Of a stretch of DNA of 64,000 nucleotides, positions 1-61,300 are shown piece after piece. The translations under genes and the position numbers were made by a program. Source of the DNA: Haliotis asinina (taxonomy: Eukaryota > Mollusca > Gastropoda > Lepetellida > Haliotidae); NCBI RefSeq assembly GCF_037392515.1, contig NC_090280.1:29393118-29457117 (forward strand). The letters are read 5' to 3'. Within the stretch, counting starts at the first letter, position 1; each line of letters starts with the position of its first letter. Under the pieces are notes generated by a model, which was not told the origin of the DNA, searched no databases, and saw only the letters and a program-made list of their open reading frames with translations.

Positions 1-292
1 ATCTACCCAGCTCTGAATACCATATCGCTCACCTTAGAGTAGGAGTGAGCAGAGACCTCAATGCGGATGCAAAACCGCATGCAGTTGAGTTCAATGGTCA
101 GACTTTGTCTTCAGGTTACACCCTGTTTGACTCTATGAAGAATGATGATAGCTTGCGTAAAACAACATGGAACGTTTCGAATTCATGGTTCCAGAATCAC
201 AGGTCTACACAACCAACACCGTCAGCATGACCTTTAATGGAGATGGTGGTCACGTGACATCTGTCGCCCTCGTTGTTGGAAAACTTCAGTAG
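1..292 (+). pseudogene. GH86-like glycoside hydrolase copy 0, C-terminal fragment
   Basis: This is the last ~97 codons of the same enzyme found at 18336-19807. Position 1 corresponds to 19515 and the TAG at 290-292 to the stop ending at 19807, with near-identical bases between. It covers the C-terminal beta-sandwich part (VGVSRDLNADAKPHAVEFNG). A one-base deletion near 177, in the stretch encoding N-V-W-E-F-M in copy 1, shifts the frame, so the open frame ends early at about 230 instead of 292. The rest of the gene lies beyond the left edge. The 3' flank also matches that of copy 1. This is either a recent pseudogene or a sequence error at one base. Confidence 0.75.
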
Positions 293-9064: not shown

Positions 9065-9298
9065 ATGTTCCCCCTGGTCCTTTTCCCTTTGTTGTTGTGT
9101 AGAGCAGCGCTAGCTGACACAACTATCACAATCTACAACGAATGGCTCTCTCAAGGTGGACGTGTCCACTATGAACCTGAAAGATGGAAAAAAATAAACG
9201 GCCTCACCCAACAGAACCTAATTCCAAAGTGTAAATCTATCGCGACGGAGACCGGACGGTGGTTGAACAGAGACGTGAACGACGGCCTTTTTGCAAAT
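9065..9298 (+). CDS. GH86-like hydrolase copy 1, exon 1 (signal peptide)
   Basis: This exon has 78 codons, exactly the length of copy 2 exon 1. It begins with a hydrophobic signal peptide (MFPLVLFPLLLCRAALA) followed by the mature start TTITIYNEWLSQGG. The Met aligns with the inner Met of copy 2, which supports this start. It ends at GCAAAT with a strong GTAAGT donor in phase 0, matching copy 2. The encoded region would be the first strands of the catalytic barrel of a secreted enzyme. The exon itself is intact; the problem in this copy is exon 2. Confidence 0.75.
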
Positions 9299-9526: not shown

Positions 9527-9528
9527 AG

Positions 9529-9622
9529 GACCATGGACGTCAGCAAGCGATATTTGCGACCTACATGAACCAACTGAATGGCTACGGGAATAACATCTCT
9601 AACATGGTCTGGACCTTACACG
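9529..9622 (+). pseudogene. GH86-like hydrolase copy 1, exon 2 remnant
   Basis: It encodes DHGRQQAIFATYMNQLNGYG and then a stretch ending MVWTLHG, aligned with copy 2 exon 2 (QDHALQSKTWATYMRQLNGYG...MVWNIRG). The first ~17 residues of the exon (WPESRSHPGYPDPTYLQ in copy 2) are missing. The 3' end is CACG followed by GCAAGT, a GC-type donor, in the same phase as copy 2. An AG at 9527-9528 would join exon 1 to GAC in frame and skip only the lost residues, so a shortened protein is conceivable. I rate loss of function as more likely. Confidence 0.6.
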
Positions 9623-11561: not shown

Positions 11562-11574
11562 TCCCATACTTTGA

Positions 11575-11822
11575 TAAGACGGTAGGATTCTTTATGGATA
11601 ACAACTGCTTTATTACATATGACGCGACGTTTCGGTATGGATCCTTATACCGTTGTGAAGCAAGGGTGGAGTAATACATCACAGAACAGACTTAAAAACA
11701 TGGACAGGGATAAAGCAATAACAAAATGTAGGTATGAATAAAAGGCGGGGGATTAACAACAACAACAATTGGTGGTAGTAATGATGTGACTATGAGAGGA
11801 AGCCAAAAGTAGCTGTAGCCAA
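11575..11822 (-). repeat. Left terminal repeat of the Penelope-like element
   Basis: It is the inverted counterpart of 12908-13166, about 90% alike. It contains the bases ccgaaacgtcgcgtc on the minus strand, part of a hammerhead-like block. Confidence 0.75.
11621..11660 (-). ncRNA. Degenerate hammerhead-ribozyme-like motif
   Basis: On the minus strand there is a hairpin CGGTAT...ATACCG followed by AAACGTC and GCGTC, as in the stem II-GAAAC core of the hammerhead ribozymes known from Penelope-like element repeats. The partner core CTGATGA is not intact here (CTTCACAA). In the right repeat (about 13071-13110, +) the GAAAC has become GCAAC. It is probably an inactive relic. Confidence 0.4.
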
Positions 11823-11837
11823 ATCCACGGCCTGTCC

Positions 11838-12750: not shown

Positions 12751-12907
12751 AAAAAACTGGCAGAAGCAGTTCAAATCAGCAGACACAAGCCCTCAATCAA
12801 CAGAGATCAGGGATATCTCATCCCAACTGCATAACATGAACTGATAAAAATAACAGATTAGAGCTCACCAGCCATCATTACTAATTACCCTATCAGCCAA
12901 GTATACT

Positions 12908-13166
12908 TTGTTACAGCTACAGCTACTATTGGCTTCCTCTCATTGTCACATCATTACTACCACCAATTGTTGTTGTTGTTAATCCCCCGCCCTTCATTCA
13001 TACCTACATGTTGTTATTGCTTTATCCCTGTCCATGTATATAAGTCTGTTCTGTGATGTATTACTCCACCCTTGCTTGACCATACGGATCCATACCGCAA
13101 CGTCGCATCATATGTAATAAAGAAGTTGTTATCCATAAAGAATCATACCCTCTTATCACTCACCAG
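12908..13166 (+). repeat. Right terminal repeat of the Penelope-like element
   Basis: It is the inverted match to 11575-11822. About 25 further bases follow before the target duplication at 13192. Confidence 0.75.
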
Positions 13167-13589
13167 CTTCTAATAATGCCAATCAAACAAATCCCATACT
13201 TTGACACGAATTTCTGTCGCCCTGGCACCTGTTCTTTCAGCAGTCCACCTAAACCGCTCTCGCACACACATGTGGGCGTTGTAGGTCTTAGAGGTTATTA
13301 TAGAATCCTTCAAATCCGGTCCTGGCACACAGCCTTTGAACCACCCAAGCCAGAATGTGTCTCCCTATAAGAGCTGTACCAATTGATAGGCTTAGGATAC
13401 TTGAGTGGAGGAAGGTAAAAATTATCATAACCCACTGTCCTGCAATCAGGTTGTATATGCATTGCATGCAAACACTTTAGCCGCCGTTATGTGTAATTAA
13501 AAAAACCCTATTTTTTAAAACGATGTTAATTTCTTTCTCTTTTTTTATTTTAAGTCAGAGAGTTAATATTTAGGATGTAGGACTCCAAT

Positions 13590-15820: not shown

Positions 15821-15829
15821 GTGTATTGA

Positions 15830-18040: not shown

Positions 18041-18335
18041 TATCTATGCTTTTAGGTTTTAGCGATATAAACTCCTCAGACTCGCCAATATTCGCGCTGC
18101 TGCTTTGGTTCTCGGCCTAACGGCCATCAAATCAACCAGCCACGCGAATGTTGGTGAGATTGAGCAGGTTATTAGTTACAAAGTGCAAAGAATAGGCTTG
18201 GTTTGGACCCGGAATGGGACTCAACAAAGCGGTGCAGTAGTTTACTGAGAAAGTGAAATTTTAAATATGCCTTATAGTACACAGAAGGTAGTTTGATGTT
18301 TGATATGCCTCTCTTAATCTCATAATTATTTACAG

Positions 18336-19807
18336 GTTTAAACTGGCCAGATTGGATGAATAAGTCAAAACATCATGACAAATTCCCCAACAATGTTGAT
18401 GCAGCATCAGAGTTCGTGTCACTGATGGTCCAGGGTTGCAAGGCCTTCACATTAGGACGAATTCCATATGTATTTGAAGTCATCAATGAACCTAATTGGG
18501 CGGAAAACATCATTGACCCACAAACGAATATAGAATTCAACAGGGCAGTTGCTGACAAACTCAGATCCAGATATGGAATGAAAGTTGCTGGACCCACATA
18601 CACAAGTATGGCCTTACGTCAAGCAGACGAAGATAACTTCACATATTGGAAGAGAACTGCTGAGTTTCTGGATATGTCTCTTGACCACTTGGACTTTTTC
18701 GGTTTCCATTCCTATAACTATCTCCGTATATCAACTGCTGGAAACTATTCTTACTTTGGCATAAATGAAGCTCGTCTAGTTGCATCTCTGGACATGGTGG
18801 AAAATTACTCTTTCATCAAGAAAGGAAAAAATGTTCAATTAGTTAACACTGAATTTGGATGCGGTAACGTGTTCGGAGTCAGTCCTAATTTTGAAAATGG
18901 ACTGATAGACTTTGAAACCATTTATCAACCAAACGGCTTCATGTTTACCTTCCTTAATATGAGAGAGTTTATAGACAGAGTTACCGTCTTCCTGTCGTCA
19001 AATGGACAATACCCTGGTCATCCTTCCCTGAGGTATTCCTTATTTACTCTTGATGGCCACCCCCTTCAACCAACCAAATTCTTCAGGTTTTGGCAAAACT
19101 TTGCTAATGACCAAAAATTTCTTCGAGTCTCAAGTCAGTATAATGGGCAGGAGAGAATGGTTGCACCTCTTGTCCTTGCAAACCCTCTCACCAAGGAGAT
19201 GGTAGTTCTTCTCCACAACTATGGTAGTAAATTTGAGAATGTTAAACTATACTTTCCAAACAACTGGCTCATCCCTTCCACGGGTGAAGAAACATGCGTT
19301 CTGCTCGAAAATGGTAATCCAGCTTTTCATGACAATTATCATTTTAACATATCGAAGCTTCATGGCACTGTTGGTCTGCCCGGATCTTCAACCTGTTTCT
19401 ACAAGTTCAAAACCAACTACAACTTTGCTGGACTACGCACGAACAACGAGACCACATACTACGGCAAGGACATGATCATACCAATCAATAACGGACATGC
19501 ACAGACAACCATACATCTACCCAGCTCTGAATACCATACCGCTCACCTTAGAGTGGGAGTGAGCAGAGACCTCAATGCAGATGCAAAACCGCATGCAATT
19601 GAGTTCAATGGTCAGACTTTGTCTTCAGGTTACACCCTGTTTGACTCTATGAAGAATGATGATAGCTTGCGTAAAACAACATGGAACGTTTGGGAATTCA
19701 TGGTCCCAGAACCACAGGTTCACACAACCAACACCGTCAACATGACCTTTAATGGAGATGGTGGTCACGTGACATCTGTCGCACTCGCTGTTGGAAAACT
19801 TCAGTAG
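18336..19807 (+). CDS. GH86-like hydrolase copy 1, exon 3 (catalytic domain and C-terminal beta domains)
   Basis: This long exon has a tacag acceptor and is in phase with a preceding G, giving GLNWPDWMNKSKHHD. It encodes 490 codons. VFEVINEPNW holds the expected acid/base Glu and LVNTEFGCGNVFG the expected nucleophile Glu, 121 residues apart. FFGFHSYNYL, LVASLDMVENYS and GFMFTFLNMREFID are further barrel motifs shared with GH86. The last ~250 residues look like beta-sandwich domains. Copy 2 has VVSEFGRGN, so V-S and R are changed here around the nucleophile. The product would be an endo-hydrolase of agar or porphyran secreted into the gut. The family call is from memory of GH86 motifs, not a search. 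The exon is intact although exon 2 is damaged. Confidence 0.7.
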
Positions 19808-22130: not shown

Positions 22131-23555
22131 ATTCTTAACAAGTAAGCTTCAAGCTTCTACACCAGTCTCAGTCTCAACCTCAGCCCATGCCGCTGCCCCG
22201 GGCAACAACCCGACATCTCCCCCGTCTTCTGACCTAGACTCCTAGTCTCCTAACTCGGCCAGGCCCACAACTACACAAGACAGCAAACATCAGGTGCAGA
22301 ATATTCCAGTTCTTCTTTATACAATTTAAAGATTTTAACATGGAATATTGACGGTTTGCTCCCAAAACTTAACGATATCGATTTCATGGAGTATATACGA
22401 AGCTATGATATTATTTGTTTAGTAGAAACGTTTCTAGACAATGTCATTTCCATACCTGAGCTCTCATCCTATGTTATGTATATTTCTAAAGCACACAGGG
22501 TAGCTAAGTATGGCCGATTATCAGGTGGGGTTGTAATGTTGGTTAAACGCACCATTGCGTCTCACTGCCAACAAGTTTTCACTGACGTAAACAATGTTGT
22601 ATGCCTCAAAATAGAGAAAAACATTGTCACTGCGCACAAAAAAATCATCTGTACTTGTTCAATGGAAGAACAAATGGAGATTTGGATGGCAACTTTACAT
22701 ATATTTCTAATCAAGGATGTAGTGTAATTGATTATTTCATTAGTTCTGTTGATGTACATCAGATCTGTAAATATATGCATATAGATACTCGTGTAGAGTC
22801 GAAACATATGCCAGTGAGTTTACACTTGAAGTGCACTACCAAAGTGACAGACAATGAGGCTGAATGTTAACATGAACAATCACGAGGTGAGTGTAGATAT
22901 AGGTGGGAGGATAGCAAGATTGATGTGTATTTACAATCTCTAAGCTATCTGTGGGGGAATGAAGACCTCAACGATTGTATAGAGATCGATGTTAATCGTG
23001 CAGTTGATGAATTTGTATCTGTCATTCTTAGAGCCGCTGATTGCATGAAAAAGCCTCTTAGAAACAAAAATAACCCCAATACTTCATTTTATAATCACCA
23101 TTGTAAATCTCCTAAAAGAGAAGCAAGACGTTCGTTAAGAAGATTTAGAACACAAAAATCAAACGAAACAAGAAGCATGTATTGCAAACTAAGGAATGAC
23201 TATAAAAATATATGTAGAAAATCAAGGGCCATGTTTAAACTCAAAAGTAGAAATAGATTAAATGCAACATTATCAGATCCAAAAGCATTTTGGAAAGAGC
23301 TCCGATCCATTTCTGGAGGAAATAAGCCACAACCTCCGATCGACAAAGATATATGGCTCGATCATTTTAATACAGTTTTTAATGGAACTGTTAATAAGTG
23401 ATACAGTACCTTTCGAATGTCAAGATGCTAAGGATTGTACTGATGATATAGATGCTACTATTCTTGAATGTGATTTCACTGATTCTGAAATTACATTAGC
23501 CTAAGATCATCTAAAAAGAGGAAAATCTCCAGGTAATGACGGTATAATTGTTGAA

Positions 23556-24618
23556 ATGCTTACATGTTGTACACATATTATTCTACCTTTTCTTAGAAAG
23601 CTTTTTAATACCTTGTTTCATAAAGGTGTTTTCCCAGACAATTGGACTAAAGCAATTATAATCCCTATACATAAAAAAGGTGAACGAGACAATCCCGATA
23701 ATTACAGAGGTATATCCCTTCTCAGTGCACTCAGCAAAATATACACACGGATTCTTCATACCAGACTTACAACATGGGCAACGATAAGAGATAAAATACC
23801 CGAATTCCAAGCCGGCTTTAGAAAACAGTATTCTACAACTGATCACATTTTCACCCTAAACGCAATAATTCAGAAATGCTTATCAAGAAAAAGGAAAAAA
23901 AGTATATGTTGCTTTCGTAGATTTTAAGAAAGCGTTCGATTCTGTCTCGCGATGTAAACTTTGGTACTGTCTTCAAAACTCTGGATTAAATGGTACAATG
24001 TTAAAGGCGATAAAAAGTATATATGCATCTGTTAAAGCATGTGTAAGATGCAACGATAACGTTCACACAGACTACTTTGACTGCCCGGTCGGTCTAAGAC
24101 AAGGGTGTATTTTAAGTCCACTTCTTTTTTCCTTCTTTATTGGTGAATTGCGCACGGATATTGTAGAGAATGGTAAATTTGGTGTACAGCTGTTTCCTGA
24201 CTTTTTAGAGATATTGCTATTACTTTTTGCAGATGATGTCATTCTCATATCCGACGTTGTCTCAGGACTACAGAAACAATTGAATATTTTAGAATCATAT
24301 TCTGATAAATGGGGACTTGAAGTTAACCTGAATAAAACCAATATTGTTGTTTTTAGAAGAGGTGGGCGATGGTCAGCTAATGACAAATGGTATTATAAAG
24401 AATCCGTTATTGATGTTGTGAATTCATATAGATATCTTGGTACTATATTTTCATCCACATTTAAAATGAATAAATGTACAAACGATCTAGCACTAAGAGG
24501 AAAAAGGGCATTATTGCAAATTTTATACAACTTAAGAAAGATTGATGTGGTTGATCCGAAGGTATTCTTTAAAATATTTGACTCACAGATTCAACCAATA
24601 TTACTTTATGGAGCCTAG
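23556..24618 (+). pseudogene. CR1-like reverse transcriptase of C2
   Basis: It carries IIPIHKKGERDNPDNYRGIS, QAGFRKQYSTTDHIF, FVDFKKAFDSVSR, VGLRQGCILSPLLFS, catalytic FADDVILISD, YRYLGTIFS and QIQPILLYGA. There is a frame change around 23915 in FVDFKKAFDS and a TAG at 24616-24618, where copies such as C1a and C3 read SEIW or LEIW. The palm is otherwise well preserved. Confidence 0.75.
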
Positions 24619-24847
24619 ATATGGGGGGTTAGCCGCATTGAAAACAGGAAAAATCCATGTCCTCGCATGTCAGAGATATTTAAATGTAGGATAACAAACG
24701 CCTAACGTTATAATATATGGTGAATGCGGACGATATCCTTTATACATAAATGCCTTATGTCGATTTATTAAATATTGGTTAAAACTTACAATATATGCTT
24801 CTCATATTCGTAATATACTTTTTTCACATGGATTTGGCTTTGTATGG

Positions 24848-25378
24848 TTGGCACAAGGTGTAGGTAATAAAGTCGATTTCCTTAGATGTTTTAAAGATGT
24901 ATGTATATATATGTTTTACCAATCGTGGCATTGTACTCTTCACAGCAGTTCACGCTACGATTTGTATACAGAGTGTAAAAGTCTGCTGGTTACTGAGAAA
25001 TATCTAAGTGTTATACATGAATTTAAATGTCGTAATGTTCTCATTAAATTCCGAGCAGGCTTACTACGATTGAAACAAAATGAAGGAAGATGGCTAAATA
25101 TTGATGTATCTTTACGCACATGTCCTCTTTGTAAACTCGGTATAGAGGATGAATTCCATTTTCTTTTAGTATGCAAGTATTATTCTGAAGAAAGACTGCG
25201 TTATTTTCCACATGTCTATAACCGAATTCCAAATATATTTATATTCAAAAGCTTGTTATCCTCAGCGTCCAGGGAATCATTGTTAAATGTATGCAAATAT
25301 ATATATACTGCTTACAAAAAGAGACAGACTTTGTTAAACGCCTATAATTGTTCTACGTCATGTTCCAATATATTCTGA
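24848..25378 (+). pseudogene. C-terminal cysteine-motif domain of C2
   Basis: It has 176 residues and contains FRAGLLRLKQNEGRWLNIDV, then RTCPLCKLGIEDEFHFLLVC, a CxxC...HxxxxC zinc-binding-like motif typical of the end of this LINE class, and ends CSTSCSNIF. It is separated from the RT by stops between 24618 and 24848. Confidence 0.65.
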
Positions 25379-38508: not shown

Positions 38509-38888
38509 GGCCAGTCGTTAAGATCCAAAGATTGTCGACGGCTTCTTGACAAAGGCATGATCAATCCTAGATACTTGTCGCTATATTCTCGCATGATCGT
38601 TGCAGAGGACACCCCAACTGCGCTTCACACATAGTACCCTTTGTACCGAAACTTCTCCCACGCTCATCATTCGGCGACAATAAGTGAAGACCCAATCTGT
38701 TGATATAATGTATGTAGCTTTATAAGCACACTATTACTAGTTTTATATAACGTCAAAGATGAAATATTGCCCACGTTAGACTTTAACTATCTCACTCAAC
38801 GTGAAAGCACATGTGTCTTTCTTCTTTGACTTCAATAAATCTGGACAGAAACATACCGAATCACAACCCACATGGAGATTTAATAATC

Positions 38889-38894
38889 TTTATT
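38889..38894 (-). promoter_or_regulatory. Polyadenylation signal of GH86 copy 2
   Basis: AATAAA on the minus strand (ggaataaagattatt), about 75 bases after the stop codon of copy 2. Confidence 0.6.
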
Positions 38895-38969: not shown

Positions 38970-40426
38970 CTATATTTTACCGACAATGAGGCCAACAGAT
39001 GATACATGACCACCGTCGCCTTGAAAGGTCATGTTGACGTTGTTTGTTGCACGGACTTGTGATTCGGGGACCATGAACACCCACACGTTCCATTTTGTTT
39101 TTCCGTCGGTCTTCATAGAATCAAAGAGCATGTAGCTTGATGACAGCGTGTGGCCATTGAACACAACTGCCTTCGGTTTTGCGTCAGCATTCAAATTTCT
39201 GCTAACTCCCACCCTAAGATGCGCAGAACTGTAACCAGAGCTTGGAAGACGGATGGTTGTCTGAGCATGACCATGGCTGATAGGGATGACCATGTCTTTG
39301 CCATAGTATGTGCGTTGGTTGCACGTGGGCATTCTGCCAAAGTTGTAGTTGGTTTTAAAAGTGTAGAAGCATGTTGATGATCCAGGTAGACCCACGGAGC
39401 CATGATCCTTAGATATGTTGAAATGGTAGTTGAGATGAATTGCTGGATTACTGTTTTCGAAAAGAACGCATGTTCGTTCGCCTGTGGGAGGATTCATCCA
39501 GCTTTTGGAGAAGTCAAGTTGTACATTTTGCCAATTTCTATCATAGTTGTGAAGAAGAACTACCACCTCTTTGGTGAGAGGGTTTGCCAGAGCCAGGGGT
39601 GCAATTACTCTTTCTTGTCCATTGTATTGACTTGAAACACGGAGAAACTTGTGGTTATAAACGAAGTTTGTCCAAAACGTGAAATATTTCGTCATGGTAA
39701 GAGCATGACCGTCTTTGGTAAATAAGGAATTCCTTAGGGTGGGATGACCCGGATATTGAACATTTCCGTGAAGAAAAACTAGAACTATTTCGATAAACTC
39801 CCTCAAGTTCAGGAAAGTAAACATGAAACCGTTGGGTTGATAAATGGTCTCAAAGTCAATGATTCCATTTTCGAAACCGTCTGGAAGTCCGAAAACATTT
39901 CCTCTACCAAATTCACTGACAACTAACGGAACATTTTTGCCTTTCTTGAGATGGGAGTAATTCTCCACCATGTCAATAGAGGCGACCAGACGAGCTTCGT
40001 TGATGCCAAAACGTGAATAGTTTCCACCTGACACCCGCAGATAATTGTAGGAATGGAAAGAGAAAAAGTCCAAATGATCAAGCGTCATGTCCATAAACTT
40101 CGCAGTTCTTTTCCAATAGCTGAAGTTATTTTCATCTGCTTGTCGTAAGGCCATACTGGTGTATGTTGGTCCGGCAACTTTCATTCCAAATCGTGATTTC
40201 AGCTTCTTGGCAACAGAGTTGTGAAAATCTATATTTGTTTGTTGGTCAATAATCTTTTCGACCCAATCAGGTTCATTGATGACTTCAAATGTGTAAGGAA
40301 GGCGTCCTCCTGTGTAGTCCTTAGCACTCTGAACCATTAGCGACACAAATTCTGATGCAGCATCAACGTTGTTTGGGAACTGACCTTGATGACGTGATTT
40401 ATTCATCCAGTCGGGCCAGTTCAGTC
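38970..40426 (-). CDS. GH86-like hydrolase copy 2, exon 3 (catalytic and C-terminal domains)
   Basis: This is the last exon of the complete copy. The acceptor acag at 40430-40427 joins a G from exon 2 to give G-LNWPDWMNKSRHQ; the stop TAG is at 38972-38970. In the spliced protein of about 611 residues, FEVINEPDW places the acid/base Glu near 178, and LVVSEFGRGNVFG the nucleophile Glu near 298. FFSFHSYNYL, ARLVASIDMVENYS and FETIYQPNGFMFTFLNLREF are further barrel motifs. About 250 residues of beta-rich sequence follow. GH86 enzymes (beta-agarase, beta-porphyranase) have this barrel plus beta-sandwich plan, mostly in marine bacteria. The frame is fully open. Function is inferred; another clan GH-A family cannot be excluded without a profile search. 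Confidence 0.8.
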
Positions 40427-40756
40427 CTGTACAGAAGAGCGTGAGAGAAAAGGAAAGTCAAACATTAGTCAAACGGAGAGACAGACACTCCTGGAGTTCC
40501 TCAAGCTCTGTACATGATGAAAGTATAGGTCAGCATTGTATATAACAGCTGTGCAAAACGTTTACAAAAGAGAAATGAGAAAGTGATTCTTTAGTGAATT
40601 TTGTTGTATATTTAGTTGTGTGCATATGATAGGCATTACAAATATCTAGTACATGATGTTCATGGTCTATATAATGCTGATATAGAGCATAGTCTTTCGT
40701 CATATTCAGTTCCATCATACCTGCCACAATCAACCGCATATTTGATATCACTCCAT

Positions 40757-41508
40757 TTGAACCTTGATATAGCAATTCTTAAATGCACAGGATATCCCAA
40801 CACAAATATCTTTCAAAATTGAACAAAGTTTCATACTCGTTATATAATATGTATTTAAGAGATTCACTAATTGATGAGTACCAAGATTGTTGTAAGCTAT
40901 CACCTAGCCTGTTTTTGAATAGATAACAAAATATTTAACATTTCCAATTTCTTGTATTTTTCCAAGCATAGCCAAACCCATATTGGAATAGTAAATGTCC
41001 GTTTTGAGACCCATGTATCACAGCCAAAGCTATCTTATGCGCCCAAATTACATATATGTGGGAGACTTTTGTATCATATCAGCCGCAGTATTAAAAACAT
41101 TGAATGTAAACCTTGATATAGCAATCTAAAATGCATAGGATATCACAACGCAATGATCTTTCAACATTTAAAAAAAGTTTGATACTACTTATATAATAAC
41201 CATTCCAGAGATTCGACCCGTGAAGGTCCCGGATAGAATAGGCCTTCAGCAACCCATGCTTGCCAAAAAAGGCGACTAAAGTTGTCGTAAGAGGCGACTA
41301 ACGGGATCGGGTGGTCAGGATTGATGACTTGGTTGACACATGTCATTGGTTCCCAAGTGCGCAGTTTATGCTGTTGATCACTGGATTGTCTGGTCCAGAC
41401 TCGACTATTTACAGCTGAATAGTGCTGATTGCGGCGTAAAACTAAACTCACTCCCTTCACGAGATTCACTAACTGGTGATTGTGCAAAGTTATCGCCTAG
41501 TAAAATTA
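40757..41508. repeat. Imperfect ~150-bp direct repeat in intron 2, second unit split by a SINE
   Basis: 40757-40910 (aaccttgatatagcaattct...gagattcactaa...cacctag) recurs as 41110-41214 plus 41461-41508. The SINE at 41215-41460 sits in the middle. This shows the intron sequence before the SINE arrived. Confidence 0.7.
41215..41460 (+). mobile_element. Full-length SINE (246 bp)
   Basis: It starts gacccgtgaaggtcccgg and ends gcggcgtaaaactaaactca plus a short CTCC/CAC tail. It is flanked by gagattc at 41208-41214 and 41461-41467. It has a conserved cgtaagaggcgactaacggg block and a ggttcccaa B-box-like site. This element is the reference for the many SINE pieces in the window. Confidence 0.8.
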
Positions 41509-44345
41509 CTAAACTGTCACAAAACTTTTGTACCATACAATGTGAAAATGGGCTATAGATCGCCAACAACTGAAGGTAGATCACCACACTAGGGACCATG
41601 AGAACTTAGGGGACATTGGCTTCCTGCAAGGACCCCATCCTCGTTTACTCCATCCCTTGAGCTGCAAGCAGTTTTGGAAAATCTACCCAGACACCCAGAC
41701 ATTAAAAAGACACATATTCTACGATTGAAAAAGGAAGAAGAATCTACTTTGAATGCTTTTGGACTTCTGTGTTTGTCAAGAGAACAATAATTTTACAGGA
41801 CTTCAACTCCTATGTAAAACGTTGGATCCTCACCTTTCAATTGATATGTAGTACATCGTGTGGCCAATACGGCATTGTCGCATGATGACTTCTCCACATC
41901 TGGACTGACAACCCACGTAGGTACAATCAGTACAGTGAGTGAGTGAGTGAGTGTAGTTTTACGCCGCACTGAGCAATATTCCAGCTATATGGCGGAGGTC
42001 TCTAAATAATCGAGTCTAGACCAGACAATCCAGTGATCAACAACATGAGCATCGATCTGCGCAATCGGGAACCGATGACATGTTTCAACCAAGTCAGCGA
42101 GCCTGACCACCCGATCCCGTTAGTCGCCTCTTACGACAAGCTGAGTCGCCTTTTATGGCAAGCATGGGTTGCTGAAAGCCTATTCTACCCCGGGCCCTTT
42201 ACGGGTATAACCAGTACAGGTTTTTACTGCATGTTAATTAGTAATACCTACTTGGGTGTCTTGCACTTCCGCATGAGATCACGGATGTAGGTTTTGATGC
42301 TGGCTTTGTAATCAGAGTATAGGCCAGTACAAGGTGTCACAGGTTGAGTGTTACCTGAGCAGCAAGGTCGTTATTTTGTTCCCAGAAATGCCAACGTGGC
42401 TTGATAACTAACGGATGACGATGTCGTATTGGTCAGGAGAGGGGGGTCATTATACAATTAAATAATTTCTATTAAAAGTGGGTGTTTTCACTCACGATAT
42501 ATTTTAATCGCGTTAAGGCAAGAAAGATACTCAGAAAAGATTATTACTGTTTACACTTTGGATGTGTATTGGTCTATTTTAAGATTGTTGATATGGCGTT
42601 AACTTCAACAGTGGAAATAGAGCTGCTATCAGGCTATCGAGAAGATGTTTTCCGGATCAAATGGCAATGGCACAAGCTGCAGCGCCACCATCCTTGGACC
42701 CGTATGTAAATATGTAAATAATTGCTATATCTATTTTTTAAATGATAATATTCTTGTTTATATTGTGATTCGTTAGTTTCTGATTTCTTAAAATGTACAC
42801 AACGTTAGGTCAACTTGTAACCTAACCAAATGCCAAGGAGAAGAAGAGAGAAGTCGTGAAGCAGCTGTTTTCCAGCTCAGTGCCAGCAGCAGCAATGGAT
42901 ATGAATGGCTTTATTCTGAGCCAAAGAGGTGGATCAAGAGATGGCATTGTGTGTTATACAAATCCACATAAAAGGATTGAAGACGCAGTTATATGCGGGG
43001 TTAGATTATTGATATGCGTATTTCTAAATTGACTAAATGTTCTTATTTTTTTTATTTTTTCCAGGTCAACTTGGGGCCTAAATAATAGCCAAGCTGGAGC
43101 AGAAAGAAGACAAGAAGGAGATATGTTGCCCAGCTCAGTGCCACTAGCAGCGATGAATGGCTTTATTCTGAGCCCAAGAGGTGGATCAAGAGACGGCATT
43201 TTTATGCAAGGTTAGATTTGGTAACGTTTACTTTAGTAGTATACTGTAAAGATGATTTTAATGTGGAAGAAGTGGTTCATCTGCCTCAATGTCATTGGGA
43301 GAAGTTCTTAAAGATCCAAGACAAAGTCTTAGACCTTGCTGATGGATAGAATCTAAAATTTTAAGGTTCTTTTACTGACTCCACAATATACAATGGAGCC
43401 ATAATCACGTTTGGAGCGAGTGAGAGATCCGTATAAGTAGGGTAGTTCGATCCCCTCCCCATGTTGAATTAGAGATATATAAAGTCAAATGGTGGGGGGC
43501 AAAAATACGACCCAGAAACTTACAACTTTGATAGTGTCATTTAGAAATATTTCAGGGACTTTATGTGGTTTGTATTTACGGCAGAAATGTATACAATTAG
43601 TTTCGGACTTTATGCTTCAATTTAAAACCATTTTCTAAACACCATTTATATATTTTGTTTAGACACATCTGAATTTGCCGTTCACTACTGTGCACATTTT
43701 ACCGCGACACGAAATGTTAAAATCATCCACAAAAAAGTGATCTATCAATTGCTTTATTTATAATCTTGGATAAACTTTAGATCTTGACACTAAATAAAGT
43801 AACTTACGAAAAATACTGCCTTGTGGGACACTCTGATCCTGACTGTAATGATGGCACAGGGTAGAACCCACGCGGCCTTTAAATTGTCTGCGAAGTCGAG
43901 TAAATCTTTTCAAATGCCTTATTTCAACGTCGTGTCGTATGATTTTTCAAGATCAAAAAGGATAAACACAACGTGTTTTGTATTAATGAGAGCGTTCTAA
44001 ATAAGCTATTCCAAACGCACTAGATGATTGACAGTACTTCTATTTTAATGGAAACCACATGTGTAACTGCTATAAGGTTATTTGTTTCCAAGTACAAAAC
44101 AAGTCAATTATTTAGCATGCCTTCCATGGTTTTCAAACACAGCTAGTCAACGAAATTCGGTTGAAAATTCGACGGAATCGTACGGCCACGTCCAGGTTTT
44201 CTTACTGGTAATACCACAGCATCACACCATGAGGAATTTCCGTGACATCCGAATATCTCACAAATATGTAAAAGTGTCTCTCAACATGATTCTGGTAAGT
44301 GCTTTAAAAGTTGATATTCTATATTAGCAGCTCCAGTAGCAAATC
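41500..44345 (-). mobile_element. I/Nimb-type LINE, 5'-truncated and decayed (copy C), in copy 2 intron 2
   Basis: From the right: RT fingers (44345), FVDD region (about 43700), post-RT domain (43400), RNase H (42700-42300), then the 3' UTR to about 41500. All are worn by indels. A ~85-base piece near the linker occurs twice (about 42875-42960 and 43115-43200), a local duplication. The 5' breakpoint next to 'aaatcgaactaat' is the same as in copy 3's intron (51653), so the insertion is older than the split of copies 2 and 3. Confidence 0.7.
41935..42205 (-). mobile_element. Full-length SINE inserted in LINE C
   Basis: Same family as 41215-41460, reversed. It begins with gtgagtgagtgagtgag and ends cgggccctttacgggta. 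A 13-base duplication with two mismatches (tacaatcagtaca at 41922-41934, tataaccagtaca at 42206-42218) flanks it. It lies inside RNase H-coding sequence of LINE C. Confidence 0.8.
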
Positions 44346-44458
44346 GAACTAATGTTGTGGAACTGTTATTCCTTATTTGTCTTTGATTTAGACATCTCTG
44401 AAAAATGTTTAGTCCCCTGTTTAGACATTTCCTCAACCAGTTTAATGACTTTAGATAC

Positions 44459-44603
44459 CTCTTATGTTCCAGACCATGTTGTCAACAGCACTCCCGTAGC
44501 CATTTAATTGTCGCATATACGTCGCCCAAGTCTTCGACTGAAGTGCATGGTCCTGGAGATAGGTGGGGTCTGGGTACCCAGGGTGACTTCGACTTTCTGG
44601 CCA
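44459..44603 (-). CDS. GH86-like hydrolase copy 2, exon 2
   Basis: It has 145 bases, 48 codons plus one base. The acceptor ttttcag precedes TGG; the donor is AGAG|GTATCT. It encodes WPESRSHPGYPDPTYL, then the QDHALQSKTWATYM stretch and MVWNIR. It begins in phase 0 after exon 1 (LFPN) and ends with the first base of the Gly codon completed by exon 3, so the three exons join without a gap. The same exon of the same length is at 51760-51904. This part supplies early barrel strands and the N-P-G-Y-P-D loop common in GH86. Confidence 0.85.
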
Positions 44604-44699
44604 CTGAAAATAAAATGATACATTACAGTATGGCTGTGTTAGGTCTTCCATGAATAACCTCGATAAGTGACTTCCATATTGTAATGAAGCCCATTTCGT

Positions 44700-44765
44700 G
44701 CGTTCCCCGTTATGATCTTGCAGGAATATTGCTAAAGGTTACATAAAACTCCACTCACTCCATGT
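44700..44765 (+). mobile_element. SINE 3' end in copy 2 intron 1
   Basis: gttatgatcttgcaggaatattgctaaagg...aaaactccactcactcc. The same piece is at 52005-52065 in copy 3 intron 1, so it predates that duplication. Confidence 0.5.
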
Positions 44766-44799
44766 TGGGGTAGAATGGATATACATTGTCCAAGGTGAG

Positions 44800-45115
44800 G
44801 TGAAATAGGGTTAAACGTGAGACTTAAGATTCTTTCGCTCATATGACGACGTGCATGCGTGTGTATGTGTGGCTGCTTTGCACTCAAGCAGACCTAAGCT
44901 GGTTTCAAAGTGCTAGCTCACTTAGATGTCATACCTCAGTTAAGCATGAATACTCCTCACAGTCACATTATACTGAGCCAACCCATTAATTCCAAGCGCC
45001 AGGCAGGGACCAACAAGTACAATATGTCAATGTTGTTTGGTATGACGCAGCCGGGGATCGAACCGGCTACCATGTGCTCTCCAGGCAGACGCTCTACCCA
45101 CTACACCACAGAGGC
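44800..45115 (-). mobile_element. Second SINE family, tRNA-derived
   Basis: On the minus strand it starts at 45115 with a tRNA-like head (gcctctgtggtgtagtgggt, A box; ccggttcgatccccggc, B box with a perfect 5-bp T stem, to 45042). A body follows (ggtccctgcctggcgc...cgtcgtcatatgagcg) with a cacctcacctt-like end near 44800. A headless copy lies at 52080-52310. Confidence 0.65.
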
Positions 45116-45317
45116 GGTCAGTCCAAATGTATCACAAAATAGTTATAGGATTATATTCACCCAAACATATTTGACAATGTCAGTTAGAATAGTATGCTTC
45201 AGGCTGTTGAGAATAGAAATGGTAAGCCCTACAGTATCACATGAATAGCTCCTTGTCCACGGATATCATTCAATAATTAAACCATTCACCAGCATTTCTA
45301 TTGCAGACCATACTTAC

Positions 45318-45551
45318 ATTAGGAAAGAGGTTGGCTCTCTGGTCTCTGTTCAGCCAACGACCAGCAGCTGTCCCGATAGATTTACATTTTGGTATTAGGT
45401 TTTCTTGCGTCAGTCCATTAAGTTTGCTCCATCTTTTAAATTCATAGTGGACATGCCCGCCCTGGGAGAGCCACTCGTTGTAGATTGTGACGGTTGTGTA
45501 AGAGAACACCGATCCCCACAGCAACAAAGTGCACAGAACCGGTAGGAACAT
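45318..45551 (-). CDS. GH86-like hydrolase copy 2, exon 1 (signal peptide)
   Basis: It has 78 codons from the Met at 45551-45549, the same length as copy 1 exon 1. An upstream in-frame Met at 45572 would add MALHSSR, which copy 1 lacks, so I prefer the inner start. The signal peptide MFLPVLCTLLLWGSVFS is followed by YTTVTIYNEWLSQGG. It ends LFPN at a GTAAGT donor, phase 0. With exons 2 and 3 it makes one uninterrupted protein, so this is the best candidate for a working gene in the window. Confidence 0.85.
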
Positions 45552-49610: not shown

Positions 49611-49758
49611 TCATTCCTAGATGGCTATACGTGTGAGTGTTGTTTCACACTCGCGGTATCATTGCAAAGGACATCCAAAATGCGCTTCACACATTGTACC
49701 CACGTGGAAATCGAACGAGGTCTTCAGCGTGACCAGTGAACGTTTTATCCTCTTGGCT

Positions 49759-50546
49759 ACGCTCCCGCACAGAACTGTAGCCAGTGCTTGGAAGACGGTT
49801 GGTTGTCTCAGCATGCCCATAGCTGATAGGGATATCAATGTCTTTGCCATAATATGTGCGTTGGTTGCACGTGGGCATTCTGTCAAAGTTGTAGTTGGTT
49901 TTGAACGTGTAGAAGCATGTTGATGATCCATGCAGACCCACGGAGCCACGATCCTTGAAATAGTACTTGGGATGAGTTGCTGGATTACCATTGTCTAAAA
50001 GAACGCATGTTTCTTCACCCGTGGAAGGACTGATCCAGCTGAAGTCCAGTTGTACATTTTACCATTTTATATCATAGTTGAAGAAGAACTACCACGTCTT
50101 TAGTGACAGGGTTTGCAAGGGCCAGGGGTGCAACTACTCTTTCTTGTCCATTGTATTGACTTGAAACACGAAGAAACTTGTCCTAAACGAAGTTTGTCCA
50201 AAACGTGAAATATTTCGTCATGTTAAGAGTTAGTGGTAAATAAGGAATTCCTTAGGGTGGGAATATGACCACGGATGTTGAACAATTCCGTGAAGAAAAG
50301 CTAGAACTATGTCGATAAACTCCCTCGAGTTCAGGAAAGTAAACATGAAACCGTTGGGTTGATAAATGGTCTCAAAGTCAATCATTTCATCTTCAAAACT
50401 GAGGGAACGTCGTAGCACATTTCCTCTACCAAATTCACTGACAACTAACGGAACATTTTTGCCTTTCTTGAGATGAGAGTAGTTCTCCACTGTTTGGGAA
50501 CTAACCTTGATGATGCAACTTATTCATCCAGTCGGCCAGTTGAGTC
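49759..50546 (-). pseudogene. GH86-like hydrolase copy 3, exon 3, broken
   Basis: The acceptor tcag at 50550-50547 is followed by a form of LNWPDWMNK carrying a one-base deletion. After ~10 codons, about 130 codons are missing, including the V-I-N-E-P acid/base. The sequence resumes at VENYSHLKKGKNVPLVVSEFGRGN (nucleophile present) and runs to FETIYQPNGFMFTFLN. Further frame breaks follow near 50230 and 50080. The C-terminal ~75 codons after LPSTGYSSV are replaced by flank sequence. It is closest to copy 2. Confidence 0.8.
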
Positions 50547-50604
50547 CTGAAAAGAAGAGCAAGAGAGAAAAGCGAAAGTCAAACATTAATCTAACATTTT
50601 ATGG

Positions 50605-51653
50605 CTGCCTTTACAGGCTTCATGTGAACCATATGCAATGGAGAAGCCATAATCACGTTTGGAGCGAATACATTATCTGTACAAGTAGGGTGCTTTGATC
50701 CTCTCCCCATTTTGAATTAGAAACAACTTTCAACAAGTCGAGTGCCTTCAGTCATTTAGCCTTAAGAGATTTAATATGCGGCAAAAAGTCAAGTGGGAGT
50801 CAGAAAGAAGAACCAGAAACCAGTCTCTTTTACAAGTTTGATAGGTGTGTGATTTAAGAATAGTTCAGGGTCTTCATGTGGTTTATATTTACCGCTAAAA
50901 TATATTCAGTTAGCTTTAGACTTTAAAATCTAAGACCAATTTCTAAACACCATTTATTTATTTTCTGTAGGCAGAGCTGCATTTGCCGTTCAATAGTATG
51001 CGTATTTCACCGCAACAACAAATGTTACAACGACGAAAGGTAATCCATCAACTGAATCATTTAAAACCTTTAATAAACAGTTGATCTTGATGTTAAATAA
51101 AGTAACAGACAAAAAATACTGCCTTGTGGGACACCCTGATCCTGATTGTAATGATCACACACGGCACAACCCTCGCGGACTTCAAATGGTCTGTCATTTT
51201 AAAAGTTAGCTACATATTGCCATGTAAATCTTTTATTATTCGTATGTCATCATCGTGTCATATGCTTTATCAAGGTCAAAACAGACAGACAATCAGAGCA
51301 TTTTAACAAATGGTTCCAAACGCCTAAGATGATCGACAGTACTTCAATGTTCAAGGAAACCACATTGTATATCGCCTATAAGGTTATTTGTTTCCAAGTA
51401 CGAAACAAGTTGATTTCGTATCATGCCTTCCATGACTTTATAACTAGTCAGTGAAATCGGTCGATGGTTTGACGGATCCGTGTGATCACGCTCAGGTTCA
51501 GGTAGTGATACTTACTACTGTACCGTCACGCCATGAGAAAGGAAATTTCTCTGACGTCCAAATATTGTCAAAAATGTGTAAGAGCGTCTCTAAACATGAT
51601 ACGCGTAATCGCTTAAAGACTTGATAATGGATGTTATCATCCCCTGTAGGAAA
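50605..51653 (-). mobile_element. I/Nimb-type LINE RT fragment (copy D) in copy 3 intron 2
   Basis: On the minus strand it covers RT and post-RT sequence of the LINE A family, badly decayed. It has the same 5' junction as LINE C in copy 2 (next to aaatcgaactaat). Its 3' part is lost by a deletion that joins it to the intron start near 50605. Confidence 0.7.
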
Positions 51654-51759
51654 TCGAACTAATGACATAACTTCTTGTGCAACTGCTGTTCCTTATATGG
51701 TTTTGGTTCAGTCATCTCTATGTAGATATTTCTTCCACCAATTTAATGACTTTAGACAC

Positions 51760-51904
51760 CTCTTATGTTCCAGACCATGTTGTCGATGGCACTCCTGTAG
51801 CCATTTAGTTGTATCATGTATGATGCCCAAGTCTTTGAATGAAGTGCATGGTCCTGGAGATGGGTGGGGTCTGGGTACCCAGGGTGACTTGGACTTTCTG
51901 GCCA
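51760..51904 (-). pseudogene. GH86-like hydrolase copy 3, exon 2
   Basis: It has 145 bases, intact, with acceptor tttcag and donor AGAG|GTGTCT. It encodes WPESPSHPGYPDPTHL and then QDHALHSKTWASYM to MVWNIRG. It is open and well preserved, but it belongs to a gene whose exons 1 and 3 are broken. Confidence 0.75.
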
Positions 51905-52004
51905 CTGAAAATCAAATAATACATTACTGAAAGAGAATGTGAGTTCTTCCGTTAACAACGTCCATAAGTGACTCCCATATTGTGATGAAGCTAATTTCTG
52001 ATCT

Positions 52005-52310
52005 TGCTCGTTGTGATATTGCTGGAATATTGCTAACAGTTGCGTAAAGCCCCACTCACTCCATATTGGGAAATGAATATACATATTCCCAGGTGAGGTG
52101 AAATGGGGTTAAAGGTCACACGGGAGAATATCTCGCTCATATGACGACGTGCACGTGTGTGTGGCTGCTTTATACTGGCTCAGTCCTAATCTGTTTTTAT
52201 ACTGCTAGCTCACTGAGATGGCATACCACAATACCCCACTTAGTCACATTATACTCCGAGCCAACCACTGATGGTCAGCACCAGGCAGGGACCAACTAGT
52301 ATCATATTTT
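52005..52310. mobile_element. SINE pieces in copy 3 intron 1
   Basis: 52005-52065 matches the SINE 3' end at 44700-44765. 52080-52310 matches the body of the tRNA-derived SINE at 44800-45115 without its tRNA-like head. Both are shared with copy 2 at equivalent places. Confidence 0.55.
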
Positions 52311-52505
52311 ACTGTCCTTTGGGCGGTCTGTTCATGTCATGAAACAGTTATAATATTATATTTACCCAAACATATTTGGCAATGTCAGCTAAAATGATAT
52401 GCTTCAGGTTGTTGAGAATTGAAATGGTAAGCCCTGCAATGTTACATACAATGCATGGCTCTGACATTCTTCAGTGATCACACAACTGCTGCATGTCATA
52501 CATAC

Positions 52506-52668
52506 ATTAGGGAAAAGTATGTCTCTCTCGTCTCTGTCTAGCCAACGTCTCTGCTCCATCTTGCAAATTCATTGTGGATTGCCCACCCTGGGAGAGCCAC
52601 TCGTTGTAGATTATGACAGAGAACGCCGATCTCCACAGCAACAAAGTGCACAGAACCACTAAGAACGA
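52506..52668 (-). pseudogene. GH86-like hydrolase copy 3, exon 1, broken
   Basis: It aligns with copy 2 exon 1 but is ~71 bases shorter: one deletion removes the KLNGLTQENLIPKCKSIG region and there are small indels near GGHVHYE. The start codon ATG has become TCG at 52668-52666. The donor AAT|GTATGT is kept. With the exon 3 losses this shows a dead gene. Confidence 0.75.
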
Positions 52669-55189: not shown

Positions 55190-56484
55190 CGAGGGTTGGC
55201 TGAAAAGTTCTAAGCCTCAATGTGAAAAAAAGTTACAAAGTCCACGTTTGTAATTTATTTTTCTACATAGTCCCCTTCCAAGTTCACACACTTTTGCCAG
55301 CGATGCTGCAAGGCCCGAATCCCGGTCAGGAAGAAATCTTCTTCAGCTACCCTAAAAAAAATCAGTCACAGCGGAAATGACGTCATCATTACTTGCAAAA
55401 TGGCGACCGGCGAGTTCCTTTTTCATTTTGGGGAACAGGTGGAAGTCAGAAGGAGCCAAATCAGGTGAATAAGGAGGATGGTCAATGAGTTCAAAGCCAC
55501 AATCGCGGATTGTTGACATGGCCACCACCGATTTGTGAATAGGCGCATTGTCTTGGTGGAAGAGGACACCTTTAGCGATCATCCCTCGTCGTTTGGCTTT
55601 GATTGCTTCACGCAATTGGTTCAGTAGATCAGCATAGTATCTGCCGTTGATAGTTTGACCTTTTTCAAGATAATCAATGAGCAGAATACCCCTGGAATCT
55701 CAAAAGACTGATGCCATCACCTTTCCAGCTGAAGGAACAGACTTGGCTTTCTTCGGAGCTGGTGAATCAGGATGCTTCCACTGTTTTGACTGTAGTTTTG
55801 TTTCTGGTTGAAAGTGATGTATCCAGGTCTCATCCATGGTTACAAATCGTGCCACAAAATCATCGGGATCTGCTTCAAAACGACGCAAATTGTCAAGGGA
55901 CGTCTGGAACCTGACACGCTTCTGTTCTGCTGTCAAGAGCTTTGGCACCCATCTTGCAGAAACTTTAGTCATTCCTAATTCGTTGGTGATAATATGCTCA
56001 ACCCTCTCGTGAGAGATGCCCACTACACTAGCAATATGTCGAGTAGTCAATCGTCGATCATCCATCAACATATCGAGCACTCGCGTGATGTTTTCTGGAG
56101 TGGTTGCCGTTGAAGGCCTTCCTGAGCGTGGGTCATCATCAAGGTTTTGTCTGCCACGCTTAAATTCTTCAGCACACTTCTTTACTGTGGAAAATGAAGG
56201 AGCATCATCCCCTAGAGTGGAGACCATGTCAGCATGTATCTGTGTTGGGGACATCCCTTTCTTTTGCAAGTACTTGATGACTGCCCTGTATTCAGTTTTG
56301 TCCATTTCTGATGATTTCAGAGGGTAGATTTACCAAAAGAGCTGTATTTGAGATAAAACTATTAGTACGTTTGTAGTTCTTGTGTCTATGATTCACTAAA
56401 TGATTGTCCTCATTGGTGGCAAACACCTGTCTCTACCTGGTGGGGAAAAAACACTCAGGCTGAGAACTTTTCAGCCAACCCTCG
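55190..56484 (-). mobile_element. mariner DNA transposon, 1295 bp, nearly complete
   Basis: The terminal inverted repeats are 28 bases with one mismatch (cgagggttggctgaaaagtt...). A TA dinucleotide is duplicated on each side (55188-55189 and 56485-56486). Length and layout are those of mariner. The single transposase gene runs on the minus strand and has two defects. Both TIRs look usable. Confidence 0.9.
55255..56305 (-). pseudogene. mariner transposase (DD34D), two defects
   Basis: From MDKTEYRAVIKYLQKKGMSP at 56305, the N-terminal helix-turn-helix region is followed by FVTMDETWIHHF (first Asp), VLFHQDNAPIHKS (second Asp) and HPPYSPDLAPSDFHLF (third Asp), the mariner DD34D set, all present. 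A Trp codon after KVMASVF is TGA (about 55698), and an extra T in a T run near 55350 shifts the frame after VTDFF. The rest (RVAEEDFFLTGIRALQHRWQ) follows in the shifted frame to a TAA at 55255. The family length of ~345 residues is met. Confidence 0.9.
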
Positions 56485-58335: not shown

Positions 58336-61300
58336 TTATACACCAAACAATCTTCAATGGAACTGTAGAGGATTTCGCAACAATTTTAATGACCTTCAGC
58401 TATTAATACAAGATATAAAGCCATCAGCCTTTTGCTTACAGGAAACTTTCCTTAAAGCTACAGATAATTTTGACTTAAAATATTGTAATTCATAACCATC
58501 ACTTTTCTCCTCCAGGTGATAAAGCTACAGGAGGATCTTCTGTTACGGTGAGGCAGGGCGTCACTCACAGTCCTGTTCCTCTCAATACCCCCCTCCAAGC
58601 TGTGGCTGTACCCCTGTACTCTTTATATATTCAGCCTTCGTTTTATCTCCGACAGGTTGATCTTCAAGCATCATATGATCAGCTACCGACGCCTTGAGTC
58701 ATCATGGGGGATTTGAATGGCCATAACCCACTTTGGGGTGGTACTAATCTCAATGCAAAGGGTAAAATCTTAGAGGAGTTTTTCTCAAACAATGATTTAT
58801 ACATTTTTAATGATGGTTCTCACACTTATCTTCATCCGGGAACTGGCACATACTCTTGTCTGGACTTGTCAGTTGTGGATTCCAATTTACTGAGTGAATT
58901 TGAGTGGTCAGTTCAGGATGACTTGTGCGGAAGTGACCACTTCCCTAATGTACTAACATCTGTGTCTCCAACAGATGTCCCTCCATCATCCACATGGAAT
59001 TTCACTATGGCTAACTGGCCTTCATATGCAACTCTATGTAGTAATTAACTCACACCTGATGTTTTTATTGATACAACTGATCCCATAGAATGTTTCTCTG
59101 CTGATCTTCTAAAAATAGCTGAAGATTGTATTCCGAAGTGCTCTACAAATCCTCACGTCCGTAAACCATGGTTTACAGCTGATTGCAAACAAGCTAAGAA
59201 GGCAGAAGGAAGGAAGGCAGAACAATATTTCCGTCACCATCCACTGGTCCATAATCTAAATAGCTACAAAATTCTAAATGCTAAAGCCCAGCATACCTTT
59301 AAACAAAATAAACATCGGTTTTGGCTAAATTATGTTTCACAGATAAATTCACGAACACCGATGTCAAAGGTATGGAACATGATCCAGAAAATTAAAGGTA
59401 AGCGAAACAAATCAAGCATACACCATCTCAACTCTAGAGATCAATTGGTAACTGATCACTCTGATATCGCAAATAAACAGCAAAACGTGCAAAACATTCT
59501 TCCTCATCCAACCATGCACCTGAATTTCATAAATACAAAAACTGCAGGGGAAGAATTGCATACATTTTCATTCGGACAATAGGGAAGAATAACGAACTCT
59601 TCTCTCCATGAGCTTTTTAAGGCTCTTGAACAAGCTCATAATACTGCTACAGGAGCCGATGGTGTACATTATCAACTCCTGAAGCACTTACCCGAATCAT
59701 GTTTAGAGACACTGTTGAATATCTTTGATGAAATTTGGACATCTGGTAAATTTCCTGCGTCTTGGCGTGATGCCATAGTTGTTCCCATACCCAAATCTGG
59801 CCGTGATCATACTGATCCATCTAGTTATAGACCTATTTCTCTGACTAGTTGCTTTTGCAAAACCATGTAACGCATGGTCAATAACAGATTAACATGGTAC
59901 TTTAATTTAATCAGAGGTATTCAATGTGGTTTTCGTAAAAATCGAAGTACTATTGACCATTTGGTTGGACTGGAATCATTTGTAAAGAATGCTATTGTCA
60001 ACAAACAATATGCAGTGTCAGTCTTTTTTTATTTAGAAAAGGGTTATGACACTACATGAAAGCATGGCATTTTAAAAGATTTACATAATTTTGGATTGCG
60101 AGGCCGCCTGCCTCAATTTATATCAGAATTTTTAACCGACAGGCAATTTCAAGTCCGAGTGGGTTCTACACTGTCTGATTATTGTACTCAGGATCAGCGT
60201 GTACCACAAGGCAGTATCCTGTCTGTCACTTTATTTAGCATTAAAATCAACACTTTAGCAAAGGTTTTAAATGATTCAATTGACGGATCCCTTTTCGTGG
60301 ATGATTTTAACATTTGTTGTCGTGGGAAACATATGCTTACTATGGAACGACAATTACAAATTTCTTTAAACAAGATTACTAAATGGTGTTTGGAAAATGG
60401 ATTTAAATTTTCAAATTCAAAAATTCTATCCATTTTTGCCGACAGTATAAACCTCACGCAGATCCGCAAATATATTTAGATAACACACCTATTGAAGTTG
60501 TAAAAGAAGCGAAATTCTTCGGGTTAATTTTTTATCACCATTTGACCTTTAGACTTCATATCAAATACCTAAGAAATATATGCCTGAAGGCCTTGATTTG
60601 CTGAGGGTTGTTTCCAACTCGAAGTGGGAGGGGGTCAGAAAGCCCTCCTCCACCTGTACCGAGCGTTTATATTATCCAAACTTGATTATGGCTCCATTGT
60701 ATATGGTGGAGCCTGTAAAAGCAACCTAAAATTATTGGATTCTGTCCACCACCAAGGCTTAAGACTTTGTCTTGGGTCCTTTCGAACTTCCCCTATTGAC
60801 GGTCTGTATGTCGAGGCCGATGAACCTTCTCTTACCCAACGGCGTATAAAATTATCTTTACAGTATCTCACAAATCTATATTCTCATGCGTCTAACCCTA
60901 CATTTAAAAGTGTTTTTTCAATCCTCTTTATGAGGATCTCTACAATAAAAAGTCTTCTCTTGTTCCACCTCTTGGGGTAAGAATTAGACCATTCATTTCC
61001 GCCGCTGGCATTGAGCTGGAAAATAAATCTCCCTCCCGTTTGCTTTCCGCTTCTCCTTGGCAGCTGGTGAGGCCACCTCTATTTCCACAGCAGAAGCTAA
61101 CGCCATATTAACATCTCTTAACCCTAACCCTAACACAGTTTAAGAAGTCGGAAACTAATGAATTACAATATAGACAAGAATATACTTAACTAAAAAGTAA
61201 CTATAATACATACAGACCCTTATTTACAGATGGATCCAAGGATGGTGACACAGTTGCTTGTGCCACTGTCATTGGATCCAGAACAATATCTTGTCGATTG

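Follow-up and report, generated by a model that had tools for sequence, protein, structure and literature searches.

A divergent, probably animal, GH86-like glycoside hydrolase gene and its local relatives in a 64,000-nucleotide stretch of Haliotis asinina DNA

A stretch of 64,000 nucleotides from Haliotis asinina (contig NC_090280.1, positions 29,393,118 to 29,457,117 of the forward strand; hereafter the window, to which all coordinates refer) contains an intact gene, here named gene A, and three related copies named B, C and D. The results support identification of gene A as a divergent, probably animal, GH86-like glycoside hydrolase (GH) gene. The best explanation, judged likely by a moderate measure, is that gene A encodes a secreted retaining β-glycoside hydrolase of the host, belonging to a divergent lineage beside bacterial GH86, which serves digestive use of galactans and derives from an old bacterial transfer. 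In the putative enzyme, two β-sandwich, immunoglobulin (Ig)-like domains would follow a triosephosphate isomerase (TIM) barrel in which E178 is the acid/base and E298 the nucleophile. The enzyme would act in the gut by endo cleavage of β-1,4 bonds in a galactan from red algae, or in some other sulfated galactan of marine origin, the gene having presumably entered the host lineage long ago from marine bacteria. Of this explanation, the results establish the structure of the gene, its homology, the catalytic pair, the selection and the family of copies, and secretion, mechanism and use in digestion are inferred.

Gene A is composed of the following elements.
45318..45551, minus strand: exon 1, with the start codon, residues 1-78 and the donor AAT/gtaagta
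44459..44603, minus strand: exon 2, residues 79-126 and base 1 of codon 127, with the acceptor ttttcag/TGG and the donor GAG/gtatct
38970..40426, minus strand: exon 3, the remainder of codon 127 through residue 611 and the stop, with the acceptor tctgtacag/GA
38889..38894, minus strand: AATAAA polyadenylation-like signal, approximately 75 bases 3' of the stop

Spliced in the order 45551-45318, 44603-44459 and 40426-38970, the exons yield 612 codons including the stop, or 611 amino acids with no internal stops, with phases of 0 and then 1 and all intron borders GT..AG. The exon coordinates, phases, borders and open protein of about 611 residues proposed in an earlier sequence-only reading were borne out by the spliced translation. 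The N-terminus MFLPVLCTLLLWGSVFS is hydrophobic and signal-like, with a mean Kyte-Doolittle value of 2.07 for residues 2-16, in keeping with the signal peptide proposed there. The product is probably secreted, judging from this N-terminus. The sequence PESRSHPGYPDPTYL in exon 2 is the counterpart in alignments of the bacterial PERPG-DP, and exon 3 encodes most of the barrel, including E178 and E298, together with the C-terminal sandwich domains. Chance splicing was ruled out by the recurrence of border positions in other copies, by the score with a profile of bacterial relatives and by the low ratio of replacement to silent change between copies A and B. Gene A is well supported as an intact, intron-containing gene, the splicing of which is predicted from genomic sequence.

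When the gene A protein was compared with the PDB by phmmer, the first match was the GH86 porphyranase 4aw7 with an E-value of 5.6e-20, followed by the GH86 entries 5ta1 (8.3e-16), 5ta0 (2.0e-15) and 8h97 (2.9e-13). The Pfam domain BPA_C (PF18040) scored 31.7 bits in gene A and 41.3 bits in exon 3 of copy B against a cut-off of 26.2; it was the sole domain above cut-off in gene A, for which one unrelated match fell below its own cut-off. A search of NCBIfam gave no match. The window genes were left out of a profile that combined 87 bacterial rows, of which one has only 432 amino acids. This profile scored 157.6 bits with spliced gene A (residues 79-608), 146.4 bits with exon 3 of A alone and 121.7 bits with B, while neither the reversed A protein nor any of 200 shuffled sequences scored at E<=10. 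Alignment of the A/B pair with 19 bacterial rows by hhalign gave a probability of 99.9 and an E-value of 1.4e-32 over 504 columns. In the full alignment, gene A is 19-24% identical to the bacterial rows. These comparisons support a distant relationship of gene A to GH86 rather than to another family of clan GH-A.

The same relationship was obtained from the predicted fold. An AlphaFold2 model of exon 3 only, made with 38 other rows and leaving the first barrel elements (exons 1 and 2) outside, had a mean predicted local distance difference test (pLDDT) score of 79.9 and a predicted template modelling (pTM) score of 0.82. The model predicts a barrel and two β-sandwich domains as in GH86. Among the best 50 of 1456 Foldseek matches, ranks 1-7 were all GH86 with E-values of 9.0e-26 to 1.9e-23 and template modelling scores by query of 0.73-0.74, and rank 8 was Xyn30D at 8.1e-16. 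The PDB comparison proposed in the sequence-only reading thus placed GH86 first both by sequence (4aw7) and by fold. The top match in both was BpGH86A, the β-porphyranase of Bacteroides plebeius (4aw7; fold E-value 9.0e-26), which differs from gene A in being bacterial and in having 22% identity in the fold alignment. The agarase Aga86A_Wa (8h97) aligned by sequence over gene A residues 77-606 and was a fold match with 20% identity.

Gene A is intact, as the sequence-only reading had it, but that reading had missed a local family, which was located by tblastn inside the window and adds to gene A another copy, a pseudogene and a fragment at the window edge.
9065-19807, plus strand: copy B as a whole, with the large exon intact and exon 2 damaged
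9065..9298, plus strand: copy B exon 1, beginning MFPLVLFPLLLCRAALADTT, with the donor at the same position as in gene A
9529..9622, plus strand: copy B exon 2, shortened, with putative acceptor CAG/GAC and putative GC donor CACG/GCAAGT
18336..19807, plus strand: copy B exon 3, fully open, with 74% protein identity to exon 3 of A and both catalytic glutamates
49660..52665, minus strand: copy C, a pseudogene broken by deletions, frameshifts and stops and closely related to gene A
1..292, plus strand: copy D, a 3' end close to B, truncated at the window edge, with frame shifts near 176-182

Copies A and B are identical at 432 of 594 aligned residues, and in both the donor of exon 1 and the acceptor of exon 3 lie at the same positions. 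Exon 2 of B is without its first 17 residues, equivalent to residues 79-95 of A, in place of which is a repeat resembling a short interspersed element (SINE). This DNA (9420-9525) resembles 41450-41340 and is repeated within the window. The SINE may be akin to those of abalone, although a literature search with its fragments did not bear this out. With the borders proposed, intron 2 of B would begin with GC. Copy C still shows the borders of exons 2 and 3. Its DNA matches that of A at 73% over 1616 columns that take in intron 1 and exon 2 and run into intron 2, and within exon 3 the match is 86% over 752 columns. Since the match extends beyond the coding parts, copy C arose by DNA duplication. 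A repeat-like stretch around 'atgtgtgaagcgca' lies 3' of gene A (38590-38700, minus strand), and a similar one is found at the point where the 3' end of copy C is lost (49640-49770, minus strand). Between exons 3 of A and B (484 codons) the rates of replacement (dN) and silent (dS) change were 0.157 and 1.158, for a dN/dS of 0.136, with values within 0.12-0.16 in all five consecutive blocks. The family has been maintained under purifying selection as local copies arose and died.

Both glutamates assigned to the active site in the sequence-only reading are present in gene A and aligned with conserved bacterial glutamates. The residue matching E178 of VINEP is glutamate in 86 of the 87 bacterial rows, with a gap in the other, and the residue matching E298 of VSEFG is glutamate in all 87. 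The role of E178 as acid/base is one that we assume from knowledge of clan GH-A. E298 aligns with E322, the nucleophile of the β-agarase BuGH86 from Bacteroides uniformis (5ta0, 5ta1, 5ta5; plasmid enzyme L003 in the bacterial set), and chain 5ta0, titled E322Q, has glutamine at the aligned position. PMC5849685 reports that exchange of the nucleophile (E322Q) gives an inactive enzyme, that the catalytic pair is conserved between BpGH86A and BuGH86, and that BuGH86 consists of a barrel with two Ig-like domains, the arrangement proposed for gene A.

The leading reading, digestive cleavage of galactan, has as its main rival a changed substrate, by which gene A would encode an active host glycoside hydrolase on a repurposed GH86 scaffold that attacks something other than agar or porphyran, for example a different polysaccharide of algae or a sulfated glycan made by animals. 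This rival is a substantial possibility, if somewhat short of probable. Several observations weigh against the leading reading. At 46 columns the bacteria reach an identity of 95% or more; A and B each keep 30 of these and are changed at 16, and the aspartate of HxYD, found in 87 of 87 bacterial rows, is asparagine in both copies, giving HxYN where BuGH86 has HxYD. PMC5849685 places the choice between agarose and porphyran in the -2 subsite (T82 in BuGH86 versus F77 in BpGH86A), with Q138 and H114 common to the -3 subsite. Within loops of uncertain alignment, T82 aligns with Gln71 in A and valine in B, and Q138 with Ile125 in A and leucine in B, the Q138 column being glutamine in 78 of the 87 bacterial rows and histidine in 4; F77 and H114 have no evident counterpart in gene A, subject to the same uncertainty. 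Residue 396 of L003 is glutamate, so that M396 and S326, as given in PMC5849685, do not map onto L003 numbering. A weak point of the gene model itself is that exon 1 of gene A (residues 1-78) lies outside the bacterial-profile match, and exons 1 and 2 alone gave no score at E<=10 with that profile. The Pfam domain PF18206 (Porphyrn_cat_1, β-sandwich domain 1) was not found in A or B, although both it and PF18040 were present in five of five bacterial relatives used as controls; the gene A model predicts strands in that stretch. Finally, bacterial GH86 rows were included in the AlphaFold2 alignment, which favours a GH86-like model.

Exon 1 is supported by its counterpart in copy B, which is identical at 52 of 78 residues with a dN/dS of 0.22 over 78 codons, and by the common donor position. 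Both copies are changed at near-invariant positions and perhaps at subsite positions; this, together with the very long branch of the A/B pair outside all sampled bacterial rows, favours a changed substrate, against which stand the retention of the catalytic pair and the naming, in the PDB matches and in PMC5849685, of GH86 enzymes with solved structures as porphyranase or agarase. Because of the changed near-invariant and subsite-aligned residues, neither agarase nor porphyranase activity is assigned. Of the GH86-like agarase/porphyranase of the sequence-only reading, the relation to GH86 is upheld and cleavage of agar or porphyran is not, 'agarase/porphyranase' being for gene A a hypothesis.

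Bacterial relatives were collected from several sources. A scan of GTDB by two peptide patterns returned 188 stretches, 99 of which encode a relative; the best 80 of these (79 loci) were kept, and their best-segment identities were at most 36%, over short stretches. Eight plasmid records were found, all under 60%, and searches of phages and of viral contigs gave no relative. Genome profile searches, five of the six on samples of larger groups, had matches in 15 of 341, 12 of 387, 27 of 144, 18 of 349, 4 of 247 and 26 of 246 genomes (102 of 1714 in all), with a best score of 97.3 bits; they gave 28 loci (L086-L113), at least 10 of which are GTDB loci again. In BLAST segments of at least 400 columns the highest identity was 27.2% among the 87 rows and the 28 genome-search proteins, which partly overlap. 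The best-scored GTDB locus was from Agaribacterium haliotis (strain 'feces2'), with the second-best profile score (95.1 bits versus 97.3). It differs from gene A in having 26% identity and in clustering with other Pseudomonadota rows, apart from A/B.

The tree with bacterial GH86 proposed in the sequence-only reading placed the A/B pair on a very long branch and left its neighbour unstable. The pair lies approximately 7.8, 4.1 and 5.4 changes per column from the bacterial rows (both sides of the midpoint root summed) in three trees, of 89, 53 and 48 rows respectively, with no stable neighbour in any of these midpoint-rooted trees, which had no outgroup. The 53-row tree, for which 26 rows were taken from the first 87 and 25 from the later 28, has a branch with 97/89 support separating the pair from 31 rows, and four long bacterial rows meet the branch of the pair; once those four rows and L083 are removed, the pair attaches at an open fork. 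The distance of A/B therefore argues against a recent transfer, and an old transfer fits, though unproven. An old transfer from marine bacteria is the most likely origin of gene A. It is rather unlikely that the genes instead represent an old, vertically inherited eukaryotic family that also gave rise to bacterial GH86; the position of the pair outside all bacterial rows would agree with this, but midpoint rooting tracks the longest branch and proves nothing, and the sampled rows are bacterial apart from A/B. Two further features of the bacterial set were observed. The protein of L048, on a contig titled as a 'Clostridia' metagenome-assembled genome, is nearly identical to that of the B. uniformis plasmid L003 (tree distance <0.01), indicating a mobile element or a binning error. 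In addition, L094, L096, L097 and L105 form a separate deep GH86-like clade with 100/100 support and profile scores of only 255-280 bits, three being from the phylum of the L050 genome and one from the family of the L019 genome.

The broken state of C and D and the repeat that damages exon 2 of B raise the question of whether gene A is itself a dying relic, functionless today, which is considered improbable. Gene A is fully open, and the A-B dN/dS of exon 3 is low. With B as reference, silent and replacement changes since the split were 11:8 in the A lineage and 3:21 in the C lineage (Fisher p 0.003, 198 codons, homologous part only with a local identity filter applied). A coarser test that included the non-homologous tail of C gave 16:19 for A and 16:83 for C (300 codons, p 0.0009). 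These counts indicate that gene A is constrained and copy C is not.

Membership in another clan GH-A family (GH51, GH30, GH39 or GH79) that merely resembles GH86 is very improbable. The 19-24% identity to bacterial rows and the presence of GH30, GH51, heparanase and GH39 at lower ranks among the best 50 Foldseek matches would accord with it, but the idea was rejected on the Pfam, PDB phmmer and Foldseek results. Seven distinct PDB sequences were matched at E<=1, of which those after the four GH86 entries were two of GH51 (0.055 and 0.065) and one ribosomal protein (0.8), leaving a best E-value of 5.6e-20 for GH86 versus 0.055 for GH51; BPA_C, the only domain past cut-off in A, is matched by B too. 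The GH86 affinity proposed in the sequence-only reading, as against another clan GH-A family, is supported.

Bacterial contamination or very recent transfer can be practically dismissed, for although relatives came from bacterial records only (the collections searched being without eukaryotes), gene A has two introns at positions common to several copies, eukaryotic transposons lie nearby, and identity to the 87 rows and 28 proteins is no more than 27.2% over at least 400 columns, with short segments up to 36%. Of eight further window frames scanned, six had transposon-type domains (reverse transcriptase, endonuclease, RNase H and Mos1-type transposase), one of the six (11796) below cut-off, and two had none. 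These frames indicate a eukaryotic setting, which fits an animal, and from the kinds of transposon around it gene A is probably an animal gene. Long frames resembling remains of non-long terminal repeat (non-LTR) retrotransposons were observed at 2341-7471 (minus strand), 22254-25378 (plus), 16877-17937 (minus) and 58698-60980 (plus). Within the first, three adjacent frames at 2341-6025 (minus) have RNase H, reverse transcriptase and endonuclease domains, and the frame at 6455-7471 (minus) was negative in the domain scan. A Mariner (Mos1-type) transposase extends across two adjoining open frames at 55352-56329 (minus), the domain being from the longer frame. A reverse transcriptase piece, below the Pfam cut-off and presumably Penelope-like, lies at 11796-12575 (plus) inside intron 2 of copy B.

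In animals, gut microbes are mostly held responsible for breaking down the galactans of red algae. The available part of a paper on abalone microbiota (PMC5870069) names GH86 in bacterial genomes only. In titles and abstract openings of the literature on GH86, agarase or porphyranase with molluscs, gastropods (Littorina included), abalone or horizontal transfer, an animal GH86 did not appear; a mention deeper in a text would have escaped this search, which took in neither CAZy, NCBI protein annotation nor subscription papers. The results suggest that the host animal itself may carry an enzyme related to the digestion of red-seaweed sugars. It is conceivable, though it falls a little below an even chance, that a herbivorous marine animal has its own GH86-derived family that is turning over, a subfamily confined to animals and acting on a new range of substrates, and that host and gut bacteria both open red-algal galactans. 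A host GH86-like family would extend a family met in these searches in bacterial records only, and would provide a distant active site for studying changes in galactan specificity. With a host-encoded family under purifying selection, the question of 'host or microbe?' becomes directly testable.
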